Assembly: GCA_003557545.1 (NCBI GenBank)
Contig: PWOD01000165.1
Coordinates: 1 to 11,249 of the forward strand
Source: a bacterium
Lineage (GTDB): Bacteria; T1Sed10-126
Length of the DNA: 11,249 bases
Reading direction: 5' to 3'
In this document: positions 1 through 5,844 of the stretch, in pieces
How positions within the stretch are numbered: the first letter of the stretch is position 1
How the letters are laid out: each line of letters begins with the position of its first letter
The notes under the pieces: generated by a model
Database searches by the model: none
Seen by the model: only the letters and a program-made list of their open reading frames with translations
Told to the model about the DNA's origin: nothing
Program-made: the position numbers and the translations under genes

Positions 1-140
1 AAGAAGAAAAAAAGAAAACTAATCCCATCCCTGATAAAATTTAGTTTCGGCAAATTTTAAACATTAATTCAGGATTGAATTTTTTCATTGGAAGGTTCTG
101 ACTGCTTATTTTTGTTATTCCCCAGGGTATTAACCTGTAA

Positions 141-381
141 TTCAGATCGCAGTTGGAGGTGATACGAATATTTTCAAATGACTCTTCAATTTACCGGTTA
201 GTAAAAGCAGTACTGCTGGAAAAACACGAAGAGTGGATGACCGGGAGGAGGTATTTTAACTTGTCTGAATATTATCAATGTAAAGCGAACCAGAAAAAAG
301 AAAAAACGATCCTGAAAAAATCAAAACAGCTTAATGATGCTTTTGCCGGAAGACACTTTTACACAATATTTCGAACTTGAC
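141..381 (+). pseudogene. IS256-family (Mutator-type) transposase, C-terminal remnant
   Basis: Only the last ~75 residues of a DDE transposase remain. The stretch RLVKAVLLEKHEEW followed by TGRRYFN matches the conserved C-terminal block of IS256-type transposases, which usually reads F-P-N-x-x-S-x-x-R-L-x-x-A-x-L-x-E-x-x-E-E-W-x-x-x-R-R-Y; here the first part is IFSNDSSIYRL. The readable frame begins after a stop codon at 138-140. No catalytic DDE core is visible in bases 1-140, so the element is broken and cannot move by itself. The stop codon (378-380) sits in ACTTGAC, and the AT-rich end TTTACACAATATTTCG just before it resembles the end of such elements, so the right terminal repeat is probably near 355-381. 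Family assignment is fairly sure. The exact element boundary is not known. A TTG at 153 preceded by no real gene start is only a chance start. Confidence 0.75.
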
Positions 382-468
382 TCATCTTTTAACCTTCTCA
401 TAAAATTATTATACATTTTCTCTTCTGAAGAGACTAAAATCTACATACCCCCCTGGTACAAGATTTTG

Positions 469-529
469 GGTCAAGTTCCCTTATGACTTTCTATGAAAGA
501 TGAAAAAAAGCTATCATAGTCACTTGACC
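469..529. repeat. Nested inverted repeat / possible folded element
   Basis: Three nested self-complementary pairs are visible. The outer arms are GGTCAAGT (469-476) with ACTTGACC (522-529). The middle arms are TATGA (482-486) with TCATA (514-518). Inside these lies a small hairpin CTTTC (487-491), loop TAT, GAAAG (495-499). The outer-arm core ACTTGAC also occurs at 375-381, at the end of the transposase remnant, so this may be a leftover of the same insertion element or a miniature derivative. It lies just past the 3' end of the minus-strand operon and could fold in its transcript. It is not a standard intrinsic terminator because the T-run (complement of 503-509) lies inside the structure. 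Confidence 0.45.
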
Positions 530-586
530 ACACTATTTAAATCATATTTTTTCAATTCAAAGAATGAACATCTATTTCTTGTTCTT

Positions 587-1336
587 TTATCTTTGATACA
601 TTCTTTGATAGCGCTTATTGCTGAAGAGGCTAATCGGAGAAATAAGCTCGTCTTTCTCCATCTTCTGCTCCAAGGTTTTCTGGACTCTCACCTCATATAT
701 CCTAATATCTTCACTCTCAATTCCTTCACGAATCATTTTGTAGACGGCTTCTTCTGGTTTACTGCGTTCTACTTCATAATATTCAGATAAAAATTCATAG
801 AGAACTAGTTCACCACGCAAAATCCCCGATATTAAAAGTGCCCTTATTTCTTCTTCGTGTTCAAACTTTCTGGGAGTATCCAATGATTCCTGATGTTCCT
901 TAATTCTTTTCTGACTATCTTCTTTCATTATCCGATATTGATCTGTATCATATTCTCCTTCCTTGAACATTCTTTCTGCTCTTTCTATGTGGCGTTCATA
1001 TCTGTTAATCCATTTCTGTATCTCATCATCTTCAACTTCTTGCCTATCACCAACCTCTTTACCGGTAAGCTCACTTATCAATGCAAACGGAACTTCTTTT
1101 AGTATCTCCCAGAAAACCTTTTGGTCAATAACTTTTTGTATCAGCAGATTAATAGCCTTTTCTTTTTCCTTATCCCCTAACGGTGTCATAAGCTCCCAGC
1201 TTGCTTCAACGGTTTGCCAGCGAGTGATTTTTTCACCATAAACCTCCGCCAGCAAAATGGAATTATAAAACATATATGCCCCTATTATCACCAGCAGCAC
1301 CAATACTCCCAAACTACCAAGTAGCCATTTCTGCAT
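587..1336 (-). CDS. Membrane-anchored SurA/PrsA-type chaperone-like protein (no PPIase domain)
   Basis: This is a 249-residue protein with an N-terminal membrane anchor (about residues 4-24) and the rest probably outside the membrane. After the anchor, AEVYGEKITRWQ followed by a helical KEKAINLLIQKVIDQK segment resembles the start of SurA N-terminal domains (a 'V-N-G-x-x-I-T' strand, then helices with a conserved 'L-I-x-x-x-I' core). Such domains hold unfolded secreted proteins. The middle (about 100-160) is highly charged and helical, likely coiled coil. No parvulin-type isomerase domain is seen, which in PrsA or SurA would follow. Its ATG shares one base with the TAA of the phospholipase A2-like gene (TAATG), with GGAGG about 12 bases upstream, so the two are translationally coupled. 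This suggests that it helps fold or export that product or the cysteine-rich one. The link to SurA rests on a short motif and could be wrong. Confidence 0.6.
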   Translation of the reverse strand: MQKWLLGSLGVLVLLVIIGAYMFYNSILLAEVYGEKITRWQTVEASWELMTPLGDKEKEKAINLLIQKVIDQKVFWEILKEVPFALISELTGKEVGDRQEVEDDEIQKWINRYERHIERAERMFKEGEYDTDQYRIMKEDSQKRIKEHQESLDTPRKFEHEEEIRALLISGILRGELVLYEFLSEYYEVERSKPEEAVYKMIREGIESEDIRIYEVRVQKTLEQKMEKDELISPISLFSNKRYQRMYQR

Positions 1337-2055
1337 TATGATTCTTCGCCTCCGTTTTCTTCTTCATAACAGCAGTCGTTACCCTGTGCAGCATCGTAAT
1401 GACCCTCACTTTCGGCCCAAGAAGCATATTCTTTAGCTATTTTCATGCAAGTATCAAATTCTGCATCCGTGTATTCTGACCTGTTGGAAACACACACATT
1501 TCGCATATCAAACAGAAAATCCGTATTACATTTATCAAAATGATCATCATCCTCGGCGCAAGTTGCAAAACAAATATCGTGCCCGTCACAAGCGGCTCCG
1601 AAATCACAGCTATCAGGCATTTCCTCATCATATATCCACAACAACCATTTCCCAAGAATCTGTGTCCAACTATCGTCTTCAGCACACGGATCATCGGCAA
1701 CTTGCGTATTTTCTCCTCCACACCCATTAGGCTCCTGTTTTACCGGATCATCCGGGCAATCAGTGCAATAGGGTAGATTTTCTGGCCAAATCCAATTTGT
1801 CTTAACTCTTTTACAATATTCATCATTTTCACAACAAACATCACCACATATTTGTTCTGGAGAACAACATGCATCATTTATACAGCCTTCTTCATCTTCA
1901 CAACACTCATTATCACATACATTTGCTTCTAAGCAACACTTGGAACTATGAGCTTCACTATACGTCCCGAATAAAAGAAATATACCTCCTATAACAATTA
2001 AAGCTGCTAATCCATATATAATTGCAGACTTATTTTCTTGTGGCAAAACAATCAC
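1336..2055 (-). CDS. Phospholipase A2-like protein with membrane anchor and cysteine repeats
   Basis: This is a 239-residue protein in three parts. There is an N-terminal hydrophobic segment (about residues 11-30). A cysteine-repeat region (40-81) follows, with spacing CC-x5-C-x3-CC-x5-C-x4-CC-x5-C-x3-CC-x5-C. The last part is a phospholipase A2-like domain (about 108-229). The domain shows NGCGG (110-114) at the calcium-loop position, ACDGHDIC (155-162) as the active-site helix with the catalytic His159-Asp160 pair, CNTDFLFDM (176-184), and a terminal AQGNDCC block like that of bacterial and group XII-type secreted enzymes. Ala155 replaces the first Cys of the classical CCxxHD motif, as in many microbial members. 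The likely reaction is release of a fatty acid from the sn-2 position of phospholipids, outside the cell. The annotated start is GTG at 2055. A TTG at 2046, eight bases after AAGGTG, is at least as likely. It ends overlapping the SurA-like gene. Confidence 0.7.
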   Translation of the reverse strand: MIVLPQENKSAIIYGLAALIVIGGIFLLFGTYSEAHSSKCCLEANVCDNECCEDEEGCINDACCSPEQICGDVCCENDEYCKRVKTNWIWPENLPYCTDCPDDPVKQEPNGCGGENTQVADDPCAEDDSWTQILGKWLLWIYDEEMPDSCDFGAACDGHDICFATCAEDDDHFDKCNTDFLFDMRNVCVSNRSEYTDAEFDTCMKIAKEYASWAESEGHYDAAQGNDCCYEEENGGEES

Positions 2056-2073
2056 ACCTTATTTTCAAATTTT

Positions 2074-2493
2074 CTATACCTGCCCCAAGCAAACGTAACC
2101 CTCAGGACAACATTCATCACCACAAGCTCGATACTCCGGACAACATTCATCGTCTATACATTCCTCGTCATCATCGCAGCAAACATCGTCGCAGGCTCTT
2201 TCCGATGGACAACAATCGTCGTCTATACATTCCTCGCCTGCAGCGCACACATCCGAGCAACCCAGTTCCACAAATGGTTTGTCCGGATACTGGTCCGTGC
2301 ATTCCTGGCAGGGACCGCAATCTGCATCAACACTGCACTCATTTGCTGGCTGCGCATGGCTTAAACTCCCACTATAGTAGCTTCCCACGCCCATCAGCCC
2401 CAATATCCCTATTAGAACAACTGTAAACGCTATTGTAACGTCTCGAATTGATTCCGGTGAAATTCTCGAATTAAGCCCGCTCTTATCTCCCAT
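2074..2493 (-). CDS. Membrane-anchored cysteine-rich repeat protein
   Basis: This is a 139-residue protein of unknown function. Residues ~19-42 form one membrane segment or uncleaved signal. After it come about 95 residues with roughly 20 cysteines and many Asp/Glu. Two clear 23-residue repeats begin ECIDDDCCPSERAC and ECIDDECCPEYRAC, each with the pattern C-x4-CC-x5-C-x3-CC-x5. The same spacing recurs in the neighbouring phospholipase A2-like protein. At DNA level the repeat is still visible: a 17-base identical block occurs at 2151-2167 and 2220-2236, 69 bases apart, which points to recent duplication. The exported part is probably held by disulfides and may bind acidic-side calcium or partner domains. 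The start ATG has a good site (GGGAGG, nine bases spacer) and overlaps the end of the upstream PLD gene by 11 bases. It ends in TAG, 18 bases before the next gene. The spacing resembles granulin-like knots only loosely, so no family is claimed. Confidence 0.75.
   Translation of the reverse strand: MGDKSGLNSRISPESIRDVTIAFTVVLIGILGLMGVGSYYSGSLSHAQPANECSVDADCGPCQECTDQYPDKPFVELGCSDVCAAGEECIDDDCCPSERACDDVCCDDDEECIDDECCPEYRACGDECCPEGYVCLGQV
2151..2236. repeat. Direct repeat inside the cysteine-rich gene
   Basis: The block CGTCTATACATTCCTCG is present at 2151-2167 and again at 2220-2236, a period of 69 bases, or 23 codons. It encodes (minus strand) the conserved start of each cysteine repeat. Flanking bases are also similar but diverged. 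This fits unit-by-unit expansion of the repeat protein by slippage or recombination. Confidence 0.85.
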
Positions 2494-3169
2494 CGACTTC
2501 TACCTCCCACATGTAACTTACGTATTCTTCTATCTGGTTTGATAACTCTCTGTCTTTCAGGTAGATTGTGCTCTCCGAGGGTCTGCCAAAACCCGATATT
2601 GTGAAGTTAGCACTTCCGCTGTATACGTGTTCATCATCAACCAGGATTGTTTTCACATGCATAGTCTCTTCCCCGCCGTAATGTTTGATCGTGAAATCAT
2701 AATCTTTTTGCAACCGACGGGCGGTTTCTTCTCCAAGCTCAGCGGGCAGTAACAGACGCACATCCACTCCTTGCTCAACCTTTTTCTGAAGCTTGTCATA
2801 GACAGAAGCCATCCGCCGGGTATCTGCTGGACTTATTGAATATGTAACTATCCATATTCTCTCTTCAGCTTCAGGTAGAATCTGCAAATATAAATGCTCC
2901 AGATAATCCCCACCACGCAGGACGCGGATGTTCTCCCCTTCCACACGAACTGTGTTTCCACGGGAAATTGAAGCGTGCAAAAGAAACGGAAGGGTGAGAA
3001 ACAGGATAGTCAGAACCAGGAGATGTGCCGATTTGTCTTTCATAACAGACACTCTGCCTGAAAAATTGGTAAACATCCGAAAAAATATGGATATAGAGTT
3101 AAAGGTTGGTTGGTTGGTTGGTTGGTTGGTTGGTGGATCAGTTGAGTGATTAGGCGATTCCTGTCCCAT
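2483..3169 (-). CDS. Secreted/membrane-anchored phospholipase D-like (single HKD) protein
   Basis: The protein belongs to the PLD superfamily with one HKD motif, like bacterial Nuc-type enzymes that pair two subunits to form one active site. The motif HVKTILVD (H171, K173, D178 counted from the first ATG) is followed by SGSANF (184-189), the usual second half of the site. Upstream, ERIWIVTYSIS and a VDVRLLLP strand match the family core. The hydrophobic run after KDKSAH (about 49-66) is a signal peptide or anchor, so the domain acts outside the cytoplasm. Substrates could be phospholipids or nucleic acid; the family allows both. Two starts compete. ATG at 3169, just behind the promoter with an AAAGGCGGGG site, adds 42 residues that include TNQP repeats. 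ATG at 3043 gives a classical signal peptide (~186 residues). The AACC repeat lies between them. It is the first gene of a four-gene operon and overlaps the cysteine-rich gene. Confidence 0.8.
   Translation of the reverse strand: MGQESPNHSTDPPTNQPTNQPTFNSISIFFRMFTNFSGRVSVMKDKSAHLLVLTILFLTLPFLLHASISRGNTVRVEGENIRVLRGGDYLEHLYLQILPEAEERIWIVTYSISPADTRRMASVYDKLQKKVEQGVDVRLLLPAELGEETARRLQKDYDFTIKHYGGEETMHVKTILVDDEHVYSGSANFTISGFGRPSESTIYLKDRELSNQIEEYVSYMWEVEVDGR
3104..3134. repeat. Tetranucleotide tract (GGTT)7GGT; AACC on the coding strand
   Basis: Seven perfect GGTT units plus GGT are read on the plus strand. On the minus strand this is an AACC tract lying inside the 5' part of the PLD-like gene, where it encodes TNQP repeats between the start codons at 3169 and 3043. 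The unit length is not a multiple of three, so gain or loss of a unit changes the reading frame. Tracts of this type (CCAA, CAAT and similar) are known slippage switches in phase-variable surface genes, for example in Haemophilus. Confidence 0.95.
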
Positions 3170-3223
3170 TTAACTGCCCCGCCTTTTGGAGTTTCTTATT
3201 TTTTATCCTGAACCCACATTGGT

Positions 3224-3253
3224 AGTATAATTCATGGTAATATATCCTGTCAA
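3224..3253 (-). promoter_or_regulatory. Sigma70-type promoter of the four-gene accessory operon
   Basis: On the minus strand a perfect -35 TTGACA (complement of 3248-3253) is followed after 18 bases by TATACT (complement of 3224-3229). Transcription would begin near 3217, about 48 bases before the ATG at 3169 and about 175 before the ATG at 3043. It lies in the 134-base gap between the two PLD-like genes, so the downstream operon can be expressed independently of the upstream one. Confidence 0.7.
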
Positions 3254-3304
3254 GTTTTATTAATTCAACAAAAAAATATCAACTATCATACCCTAATATA
3301 CTTC

Positions 3305-4024
3305 TTAACGTTTTAGAGAAAGAAATTCACGATAGTTGTCCCAGATTATATCCTTCCCCGGCTCTACCGCTTCCATTAGCAGAGATTGCTCATGGTTGTA
3401 CCCCAGCGCCGCATTTGTCCAATTGTGTGAACCCTGAAATATATATTTGCCATCTATCGCAACAAACTTATCATGTAAACTTGTCGGGGACTGATTATAA
3501 TCAACCACTACACCTCGGTTCACCAGATATTCCTTCGCCATCTTATTTGATTTTGTTTTATACGAATTGGCCTCGCTTGGACGACTCAATACAACCAATA
3601 CTTCAACCCCCCGGCGAGACGCTTCAATCAGCCGATCCAAAATCTCTTTTACATGATCTTCTCGCCAACGATCCCAACCCTCATCCTCTTCCGCCATCAA
3701 ACTGACCGGTTCAATCACATACATCGCCACAAAAATCTCTTGTCTTGCTCTTCCAATTTTCTACTTCAACTGTTTCCTGTAGCGCTCATTAAATAGCGGT
3801 TTCACTATGTAATCAGATTTCACCTCCAATCCAATTACTTTTTCTGAATGCTCTTCCACTGTTTCATCCGGCTGAAGATTGAAAACAAAATAGATAAGCA
3901 AAGCAACAAAGAAAACAACTATGAAGCTTTTAATCAAAAAAGAAAGTTTTCCTCTCTGTTTAGAACTATCCGGATAAATTACCGGCTCATCTGAATTCTT
4001 CAAACTCCAACACCCCGGTTTCAA
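3305..4024 (-). pseudogene. Second PLD-like (single HKD) membrane protein, interrupted by an in-frame TAG
   Basis: Two reading frames, 3761-4024 and 3305-3730, are in the same frame and separated by one TAG at 3761-3763 (codon 88 of about 240). Read through, they make one coherent protein. It has a short cytoplasmic N-terminus, a membrane segment (about residues 29-49, SFIVVFFVALLIYFVF), a linker, then the PLD core. The join NERYRKQLK-stop-KIGRARQEIFVAMYVIEP lies inside the core's first helix and strand, so the part after the stop is not a complete domain. The motif HDKFVAID (H184, K186, D191 in the joined count) and QGSHNW are intact. Size and layout match the neighbouring PLD-like gene, so the two are probably paralogues. 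The start is uncertain: TTG at 4024 with an in-frame stop at 4043-4045 and no clear ribosome site. The best reading is a recent nonsense mutation. Sequencing error, suppression or recoding of TAG are the alternatives. Confidence 0.75.
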
Positions 4025-4140
4025 GAAGCATTCTAAAAATGTTTATCCGATAAACCTCGGTCGAAAATAGCTCAAAAACCACTCAGGGCCTTCTCGCTGC
4101 TTATTTCACCATACCATAGCGACTGAATGGAATAAAATAT

Positions 4141-4169
4141 ATTATAACTACTTCCCAGAATATTGTCCC
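4141..4169 (-). promoter_or_regulatory. Possible promoter for the interrupted PLD-like gene
   Basis: On the minus strand GGGACA (complement of 4164-4169) is followed after 17 bases by a perfect TATAAT (complement of 4141-4146). The -35 box matches the consensus in only four of six positions. It points toward the TTG start at 4024, leaving a leader of about 110 bases. Confidence 0.4.
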
Positions 4170-4471
4170 CGCCCGGACAAATACCTATCTACCCGCCCAC
4201 AAATAAATTTTCCCGATGGTTAATTCAGGGCAGCTAATTCTTAAAATCAACAGAAGCCATGCAAAGCTGCAAAATCTCCAAAATGAATGGAAAACATAAT
4301 CGAACTAAATTGAAATGCGACTCTTTTGAATTATTTCACAAGCGCATCCTCTAAAACCGTTTTATAGTGCACCTGAAATCCTCCCCTAATACTTTTCCGT
4401 TATCTGGACGGACACAAAAGTTAGTCAATAATCAACCCCCGTCCCACAATATGACGTAGTGACTGATCCTT

Positions 4472-4488
4472 AACTTAAAGATTAAGTT
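4472..4488. repeat. Inverted repeat AACTTAA-AGA-TTAAGTT, operator-like
   Basis: This is a perfect 7-base inverted repeat with a three-base centre, 63 bases upstream of the small plus-strand start at 4551. The length and symmetry fit a binding site for a dimeric regulator. It is too weak and AT-rich to be a terminator. No regulator gene is present in the window to pair it with. Confidence 0.35.
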
Positions 4489-4550
4489 TATTCTGTAACA
4501 GTTCGATGATACTTAGGTGGGAAGAATTATTCTGATCAGGAAGTGAAAAA

Positions 4551-4652
4551 ATGAAAACTGCTGAAAGTACGGAATGGATAGAGGATAGAATCGAAAAATT
4601 GGAAAAAATTAAACAGCTTACCGAACCACTAAAAAACAAAACCCGCTCTTAA
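4551..4652 (+). CDS. Small plus-strand ORF, 33 residues, unknown
   Basis: The frame runs ATG to TAA and encodes a charged peptide beginning MKTAESTEWIEDRIEKLEK. It is almost wholly amphipathic helix, with acidic and basic residues alternating around Leu/Ile positions, and has no membrane segment or Cys. Support for it being real is the ribosome site AGGAAG seven bases before the ATG and the inverted repeat upstream. It is the only intact plus-strand frame here with such a site. It converges on deoB, whose stop lies 16 bases further on. A helix of this kind could be a small protein partner or the stub of a longer lost gene. No family is recognised. Confidence 0.4.
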   Translation: MKTAESTEWIEDRIEKLEKIKQLTEPLKNKTRS

Positions 4653-4668
4653 GCTAAATTTTCCGGTA

Positions 4669-5844
4669 TCAGACTGTAACTTCTGGTAAGAAACTTGTCC
4701 CCTCGAGGCGGGGATTCAGGTCAAAATAATCAAGAATGGTTTGACCGACATCATAAAATCCAAGACGAACCCCAAGATCAACCCCGGAATCCAGACCGGG
4801 ACCGTAAACCAGCAACGGTACCATCTCGCGGCTATGGTCGGTTCCCTCAGTGGTAGGATCATTACCATGATCAGCCGTAATAATTAAGATATCCCCCTGA
4901 CCGAGACAGTCCAACAGCTCAGCCAGTCCTGCGTCCCATTCTTCCAGAGATCTTGCATATCCCAGGGGGTCATTACGATGACCAAACTTCATATCAAAAT
5001 CAACCAGATTAACAAACACCAGACCATCCTCGTTAAAATTTTTCGCAAGATCAATCGTTTTTTCTATTCCGTTAGCGTTATCGGTTGTTTTCACCGAACG
5101 ACTGACGCCACGACCATTAAAAATATCACTGATTTTGCCCACTGCGACAACTGTATATCCAACCTTACAAAGATCATCCATAACAGTAGGTTTGATTGGA
5201 TCAAGAGAAAAATCCTTACGCCGGTGAGTTCGTTCAAAATTACCCGGTTTACCAACAAAAGGCCGGGCGATTACACGGCCCACAGCATGATCACCCGTAA
5301 GAATTTCCCGGGCCAGGTTACACATCCTGTACAGTTCAACTACCGGAATAACCTCCTCATGGGCTGCAACCTGAAAAACGCTATCACCACTGGTATAAAC
5401 AATCGGTGAACCGGTATGGATATGTTCTTCCCCAAGATCCTCAATGATTTTAGTTCCAGAAGCCGCTTTATTACCAATTACAGGGCGACCTATTGCCCGT
5501 TCAAAAGGTTCAATCACTTCACCGGGGAACCCGTCGGGATAGGTGGGAAAAGGATCAGCAACACTGACACCCATAAGCTCCCAGTGGCCAACAGTTGTAT
5601 CGGTAGCGCCTGACAGTTCAACCATTGAGCCATAATTGCCAAGCGGCTGAGGATGGGGCTCAACTCCCAGCAGAGGATAGATCTGCCCCAGGCCAAGCCT
5701 CTCCATATTGGGCAGTTCAACCCCCGCCACACCGGAAGCGGTATTAAACAGGGTATTACTATTATGAGAATCAAACCTGGCCGCATCGGGTGCAGCACCA
5801 ATTCCCACACTATCAATAACAACTAAAAAAACTCGTTTAGTCAT
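4669..5844 (-). CDS. deoB: Phosphopentomutase
   Basis: DeoB interconverts ribose 1-phosphate and ribose 5-phosphate (and the deoxy forms) in the cytoplasm, linking nucleoside breakdown to the pentose phosphate pathway. The protein is 391 residues, a normal full length, and belongs to the alkaline phosphatase superfamily. The dinuclear manganese ligands are all in place: D11 in VIDSVGIG, D284 and H289 in VDFDMKFGHRND, D325 and H326 in TADHGND, H337 in TDHSRE. T83 in ATDTTVGHWELMG is the phosphorylated threonine. The start ATG has GGGAGAG five bases upstream and overlaps the end of the CBS-domain gene by eight bases, so it is the last gene of a HEAT-CBS-deoB unit. No purine nucleoside phosphorylase or deoxyribose aldolase gene, its usual partners, is nearby. 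No clear terminator is visible after it. Confidence 0.96.
   Translation of the reverse strand: MTKRVFLVVIDSVGIGAAPDAARFDSHNSNTLFNTASGVAGVELPNMERLGLGQIYPLLGVEPHPQPLGNYGSMVELSGATDTTVGHWELMGVSVADPFPTYPDGFPGEVIEPFERAIGRPVIGNKAASGTKIIEDLGEEHIHTGSPIVYTSGDSVFQVAAHEEVIPVVELYRMCNLAREILTGDHAVGRVIARPFVGKPGNFERTHRRKDFSLDPIKPTVMDDLCKVGYTVVAVGKISDIFNGRGVSRSVKTTDNANGIEKTIDLAKNFNEDGLVFVNLVDFDMKFGHRNDPLGYARSLEEWDAGLAELLDCLGQGDILIITADHGNDPTTEGTDHSREMVPLLVYGPGLDSGVDLGVRLGFYDVGQTILDYFDLNPRLEGTSFLPEVTV

Follow-up and report, generated by a model that had tools for sequence, protein, structure and literature searches.

In this study, we found that the start region of a gene for a phospholipase D-like (PLD-like) protein contains a short AACC repeat that is prone to slippage. 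We interpret the locus as a leader-based translational switch, that is, a candidate tetranucleotide contingency (phase-variation) locus, and we put the probability of this reading at roughly one half. In our reading, the 5' leader that holds the tract has an additional start codon and is probably translated. The window analysed is the whole contig of 11,249 bp, and the host genome was assembled from a metagenome and comprises 239 contigs with a total of 2.15 Mb. GTDB T1Sed10-126 corresponds to Candidatus Busufiota, for which two genomes of 2.15-2.2 Mb have been reported from hypersaline soda lake sediment (PMC11382960). We infer that the host is one of the two genomes of this little-known soda-lake candidate phylum. 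The features of the start region are as follows.

3224-3253, minus strand: promoter-like site TTGACA-N18-TATACT, with 11 of 12 matches, the best in 2-4700.
3167-3169, minus strand: upstream start codon ATG (ATG3169), with the SD-like sequence AAGGCGGGG before it.
3044-3169, minus strand: leader, or N-terminal extension, containing the tract; it encodes PPTNQPTNQPT and its codon usage is intergenic-like.
3104-3134, minus strand (GGTT on the plus strand): ACC(AACC)7 tetranucleotide tract, 31 nt, perfect, found by TRF and by direct count.
3041-3043, minus strand: start codon of the signal-peptide form (ATG3043); an SD-like site precedes it (-6.5).

Seven perfect AACC units with a period of 4 occupy positions 3131-3104 of the minus strand and are preceded by ACC. 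ATG3169 is located 35 nt 5' of the tract and ATG3043 61 nt 3' of it. A sequence-only reading of this DNA had placed an AACC tract between two start codons of the PLD-like gene, and the ACC(AACC)7 tract does lie between ATG3169 and ATG3043. The tetranucleotide, non-triplet unit and its position, just after an SD-preceded ATG and downstream of the strongest promoter-like match found there, support that reading. The tract is known from one sequence of the locus, with seven units.

The length of the tract was compared with the background of the host, taken as sampled stretches (695 kb of 2.15 Mb, with 86 kb of the sample masked as N). The longest period-4 run in this sample was the 31-nt tract itself, and the next was 14 nt. 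By chance, a genome of 2.15 Mb would be expected to contain about 8e-7 runs as long as this. In the sister genome (G001, MAG T1Sed10_126), the longest period-4 run was 12 nt in the 198 kb sampled. When the host genome was searched with five AACC units, the tract was the sole match. Only 2 of the 386 genomes searched contained (AACC)7, and the other one (G336) has a longer tract, (AACC)13, in an intergenic position 130 nt upstream of a lipoprotein-like gene. The tract is a perfect non-triplet tandem repeat far beyond chance length, which is one of the marks of an SSR-mediated phase-variable locus. Since it far outlies the genome background, it is a product of slippage or selection and not of composition. 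Judged from sequence, we file the locus as a strong candidate only for SSR-mediated phase variation. Two observations on the host count against a slippage switch. MutS is encoded there, and only one tract of this kind was found, whereas known users of such repeat switches carry many tracts per genome.

We then rebuilt the leader in silico with 3-12 units and read the frames from ATG3169. With seven units (also 4 and 10), the frame was open into the PLD-like protein and gave a product of 228 aa. With eight units (also 5 and 11), a TAA directly after the tract closed a 24-aa leader, which ended 55 nt before ATG3043. With six units (also 3, 9, and 12), the leader was 41 aa long, and its TGA shared bases with ATG3043 (ATGA). 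The three frame states proposed earlier, namely fused at seven, TAA at eight, and ATGA at six, were therefore reproduced exactly. The fusion frame was left open by about 10% of random flanks of equal composition, and all three states were reproduced by about 1.6% of such flanks. The three-state geometry is only mildly surprising, since every ATG with an A behind it yields an ATGA whenever that frame is open.

The signals in front of the two start codons were then compared. Sixteen sigma-70-like sites were found in 2-4700 against 12.5 expected from shuffled sequence, and because the total is close to the shuffled expectation, the promoter-like site is suggestive only. It lies 55 nt upstream of ATG3169, and the predicted RNA start at about 3217 leaves about 48 nt before this codon. 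The SD duplex of ATG3169 had an energy of -6.9 kcal/mol, compared with medians of -7.0 for gene starts and -2.9 for internal ATGs; an energy as good as this was reached by 9% of internal ATGs. These signals make ATG3169 a plausible start. The codon usage of the leader without the tract scored -0.23 bits per codon. Of the gene N-termini, 96% scored higher, and the value falls close to the centre of the intergenic range. In contrast, the first 31 codons from ATG3043 showed coding-like usage. Since the leader is intergenic-like in its codon usage, ATG3043, at which the signal peptide begins, is probably the original start and the older of the two. For the stretch before it, recent capture as a 5' leader is more likely than an origin as an old protein domain. 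The fused form proposed for seven units stands as far as its frame is concerned, with 228 open codons from the SD-preceded ATG3169. Its leader does not look like coding sequence, and the fused form may therefore be a by-product.

The same data bear on the possibility that the tract is a microsatellite in an untranslated 5' leader with little effect, its length perhaps changing, and that only ATG3043 is used while the open fusion frame is a coincidence. We consider this account possible but rather unlikely. The intergenic-like codon usage of the leader fits it, as do the SD-like site of ATG3043 and the clear signal peptide that begins there. The SD energies of ATG3043 and ATG3169 are similar (-6.5 vs -6.9), and the gene may therefore be expressed independently of the leader. 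The intergenic (AACC)13 tract of G336, 130 nt upstream of a gene, and the chance of about 10% for an open fusion frame also agree with a tract of little consequence. However, the median-strength SD at ATG3169 and the 11/12 promoter-like site make translation of the leader likely. If the leader is translated, the length of the tract must alter what ribosomes do.

A classical ON/OFF switch, in which ATG3169 is the sole real start, the 228-aa PTNQ-repeat protein is the true product, and six and eight units are OFF, appears improbable. The SD and promoter geometry of ATG3169 suits such a switch, and the repeat unit, its position, and the PTNQ-type peptide match the CCAA genes of H. influenzae. Against it, an SD-like site stands before ATG3043 and the signal peptide starts exactly there, the 42-aa extension does not resemble coding sequence, and the ATGA overlap at six units suits a restart of translation. 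Least probable of all is action at the DNA or RNA level, through a two-layer template-strand G-quadruplex, a protein-binding array, or a length-dependent Rho loading site. The GG-N-GG pattern at 3104-3136 on the plus strand and the extreme C-over-G stretch in the RNA would favour it, but each is a consequence of the repeat unit. The folding of the leader RNA is not unusual (z=0.94), and the promoter-like site is located upstream of the tract and does not include it.

The translational switch that we favour would work as follows. The promoter-like site at 3253-3224 would direct transcription from about 3217. Ribosomes would initiate at ATG3169 and translate across the AACC tract. Replication slippage, as suggested by the purity and length of the tract, would add or remove one 4-nt unit and so put the leader in one of three frames. 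In the present state of seven units, the leader would be fused to the PLD-like protein. With six units, it would end on ATG3043, where the same ribosome could restart. With eight units, translation would stop 55 nt before ATG3043; the gene would then depend on its own modest ribosome site, and the C-rich RNA would be exposed. Expression of the PLD-like protein would likely be high, high, and low for seven, six, and eight units, respectively. Overlapping genes and possibly Rho could pass this effect to a four-gene operon.

The operon consists of the following genes.

2483-3043, minus strand: PLD-like protein of 186 aa with a signal peptide and a PLDc_2 domain (PF13091, E=2e-19; one HKD motif, HVKTILVD).
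2074-2493, minus strand: operon gene 2, Cys-rich with an N-terminal TM segment; it overlaps the end of the PLD-like gene and has a strong SD.
1336-2055, minus strand: operon gene 3, with a TM segment and a Cys-rich region; it has a phospholipase-A2-like CDGHDIC motif, a likeness at the motif level only.
587-1336, minus strand: operon gene 4, TM-anchored, with a stop/start overlap with gene 3.

The PLD-like gene had been proposed as the first of an operon, which agrees with the tightly spaced downstream genes and the overlaps at 2493 and 1336. A PF13091 profile match together with an HxKx4D motif places its product in the phospholipase D superfamily. A defence function of the DISARM DrmC or DpdK type was rejected, as the scores were 49 bits against a cut-off of 133 for DrmC and 28 against 100 for DpdK. 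A signal peptide is present, and no defence neighbours were found around the locus. The hydrophobic signal segment is strong, corresponds to residues 50-64 of the fused form, and is present in both the short and the fused forms. The proposal that secretion of the enzyme varies between cells is not borne out, since both forms hold the segment and the sequence gives no reason for secretion switching. What would switch is the amount of the protein and its N-terminus. Omp85 was found in the host, which indicates a diderm cell and therefore a PLD-like product that should be periplasmic or membrane-bound rather than secreted. A single-sequence structure model of the fused form was poor (pLDDT 50).

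Family searches matched neither operon gene 2 nor operon gene 4. The CDGHDIC motif of gene 3 (1570-1590, minus strand) is near the phospholipase A2 histidine-aspartate signature, and the gene adjoins the PLD-like gene. We rejected an assignment of gene 3 as a phospholipase A2, which had the motif alone and no Pfam, NCBIfam, or PDB match; its single-sequence structure model was also poor (pLDDT 46). A Cys-rich repeat region is common to genes 2 (2074-2493) and 3 (1813-1956) on the minus strand, with 42% over 48 aa, as if one had been derived from the other. A second PLD-like gene lies upstream (3305-4024, minus strand) and is interrupted by one in-frame TAG (3761-3763), with both halves in the same frame. 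As TAG terminates about 19% of long ORFs in the host, the split looks like a nonsense break or an assembly error and not a recoded codon.

Rho-family matches were found in both the host and the sister genome, so Rho-dependent polarity is possible when translation stops early, and polarity on the operon via Rho may follow. Among the 78-nt windows of the transcript, the one with the strongest excess of C over G lies in the leader, with 30 C and 2 G. This is no separate evidence for Rho, because the tract itself causes the C-richness. Each genome apparently has two Rho-like genes, one of full length and one shorter (L176 and L178 in G001; L177 and L179 in the host), and the Rho-like pieces of the host are located at contig ends. 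The full form of the switch, with three levels (fused, re-initiated, and decoupled) set by starts on both sides of the tract and controlling, in a free-living bacterium of this two-genome soda-lake phylum, an operon with a periplasmic PLD-like product, is offered as a tentative and somewhat doubtful model.

The locus was also compared with the sister genome. It gave the best match to the phosphopentomutase of the host, at 81%, and the order HEAT-CBS-deoB is common to both, after which synteny breaks. Around 4000-4669, the shared order ends right after deoB, and G001 has an ankyrin-like lipoprotein gene at the place of the operon. The PLD operon itself is absent from G001. A second allele of the locus was sought, and no close PLD homologue was found in the scanned genome contigs, viral contigs, or phages; a plasmid search gave matches of 29-30% identity only. 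G001 has perfect 7- or 8-nt tandem runs of 33-37 nt (TCGGTGT, GATGGGGC, and AAGTGTGA, at L231:2277, L231:7491, and L242:15432). These three runs were rejected as further switches, as they are intergenic or by the start of a histidine kinase gene and outside the main genes.

Tetranucleotide tracts in H. influenzae, CCAA included, are located at the start codon or shortly behind it (PMC2651432), and the CCAA loci (hgp genes and the NTHi_1769-type glycosyltransferase) occur many times per genome and have a proven length variation of 4-39 units. In a count in H. influenzae Rd, at least five tetranucleotide units defined a candidate locus (PMC4235727). The likeness to the Haemophilus switch that had been drawn from the letters is supported: AACC is the repeat unit of the hgp genes, CCAA, in another register. 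As in the hgp and NTHi_1769-type genes, the tract lies near the 5' end of a reading frame, and the non-triplet unit encodes a hydrophilic PTNQ peptide, as in the CCAA loci (PMC2651432). In contrast to those loci, which are many, long, and proven to vary, the present one is a single seven-unit tract known from one sequence, and it belongs to a different enzyme in an unrelated phylum. The CAAT tracts of lic1A and lic2A have several initiation codons and give graded rather than plain ON/OFF output (PMC4019658; PMC4235727, citing Dixon 2007). As in these genes, the tetranucleotide tract of the present locus is accompanied by more than a single start codon. Their alternative starts are upstream of the tract in different frames, whereas here one start is upstream and one downstream. 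The predicted ATGA stop-start overlap at six units and the overlapping genes of the operon resemble bacterial uORF or leader coupling, although slippage of a repeat does not control ordinary uORFs.

Repeat-slippage switches are known mostly from host-associated pathogens. With a fixed repeat number, the locus would be no more than an unusual 5' leader microsatellite. A 2025 review asks whether multi-locus phase variation is truly confined to pathogens or whether this reflects database bias (PMC11868660), and a convincing example from an uncultured haloalkaliphilic lineage would be relevant to this question.
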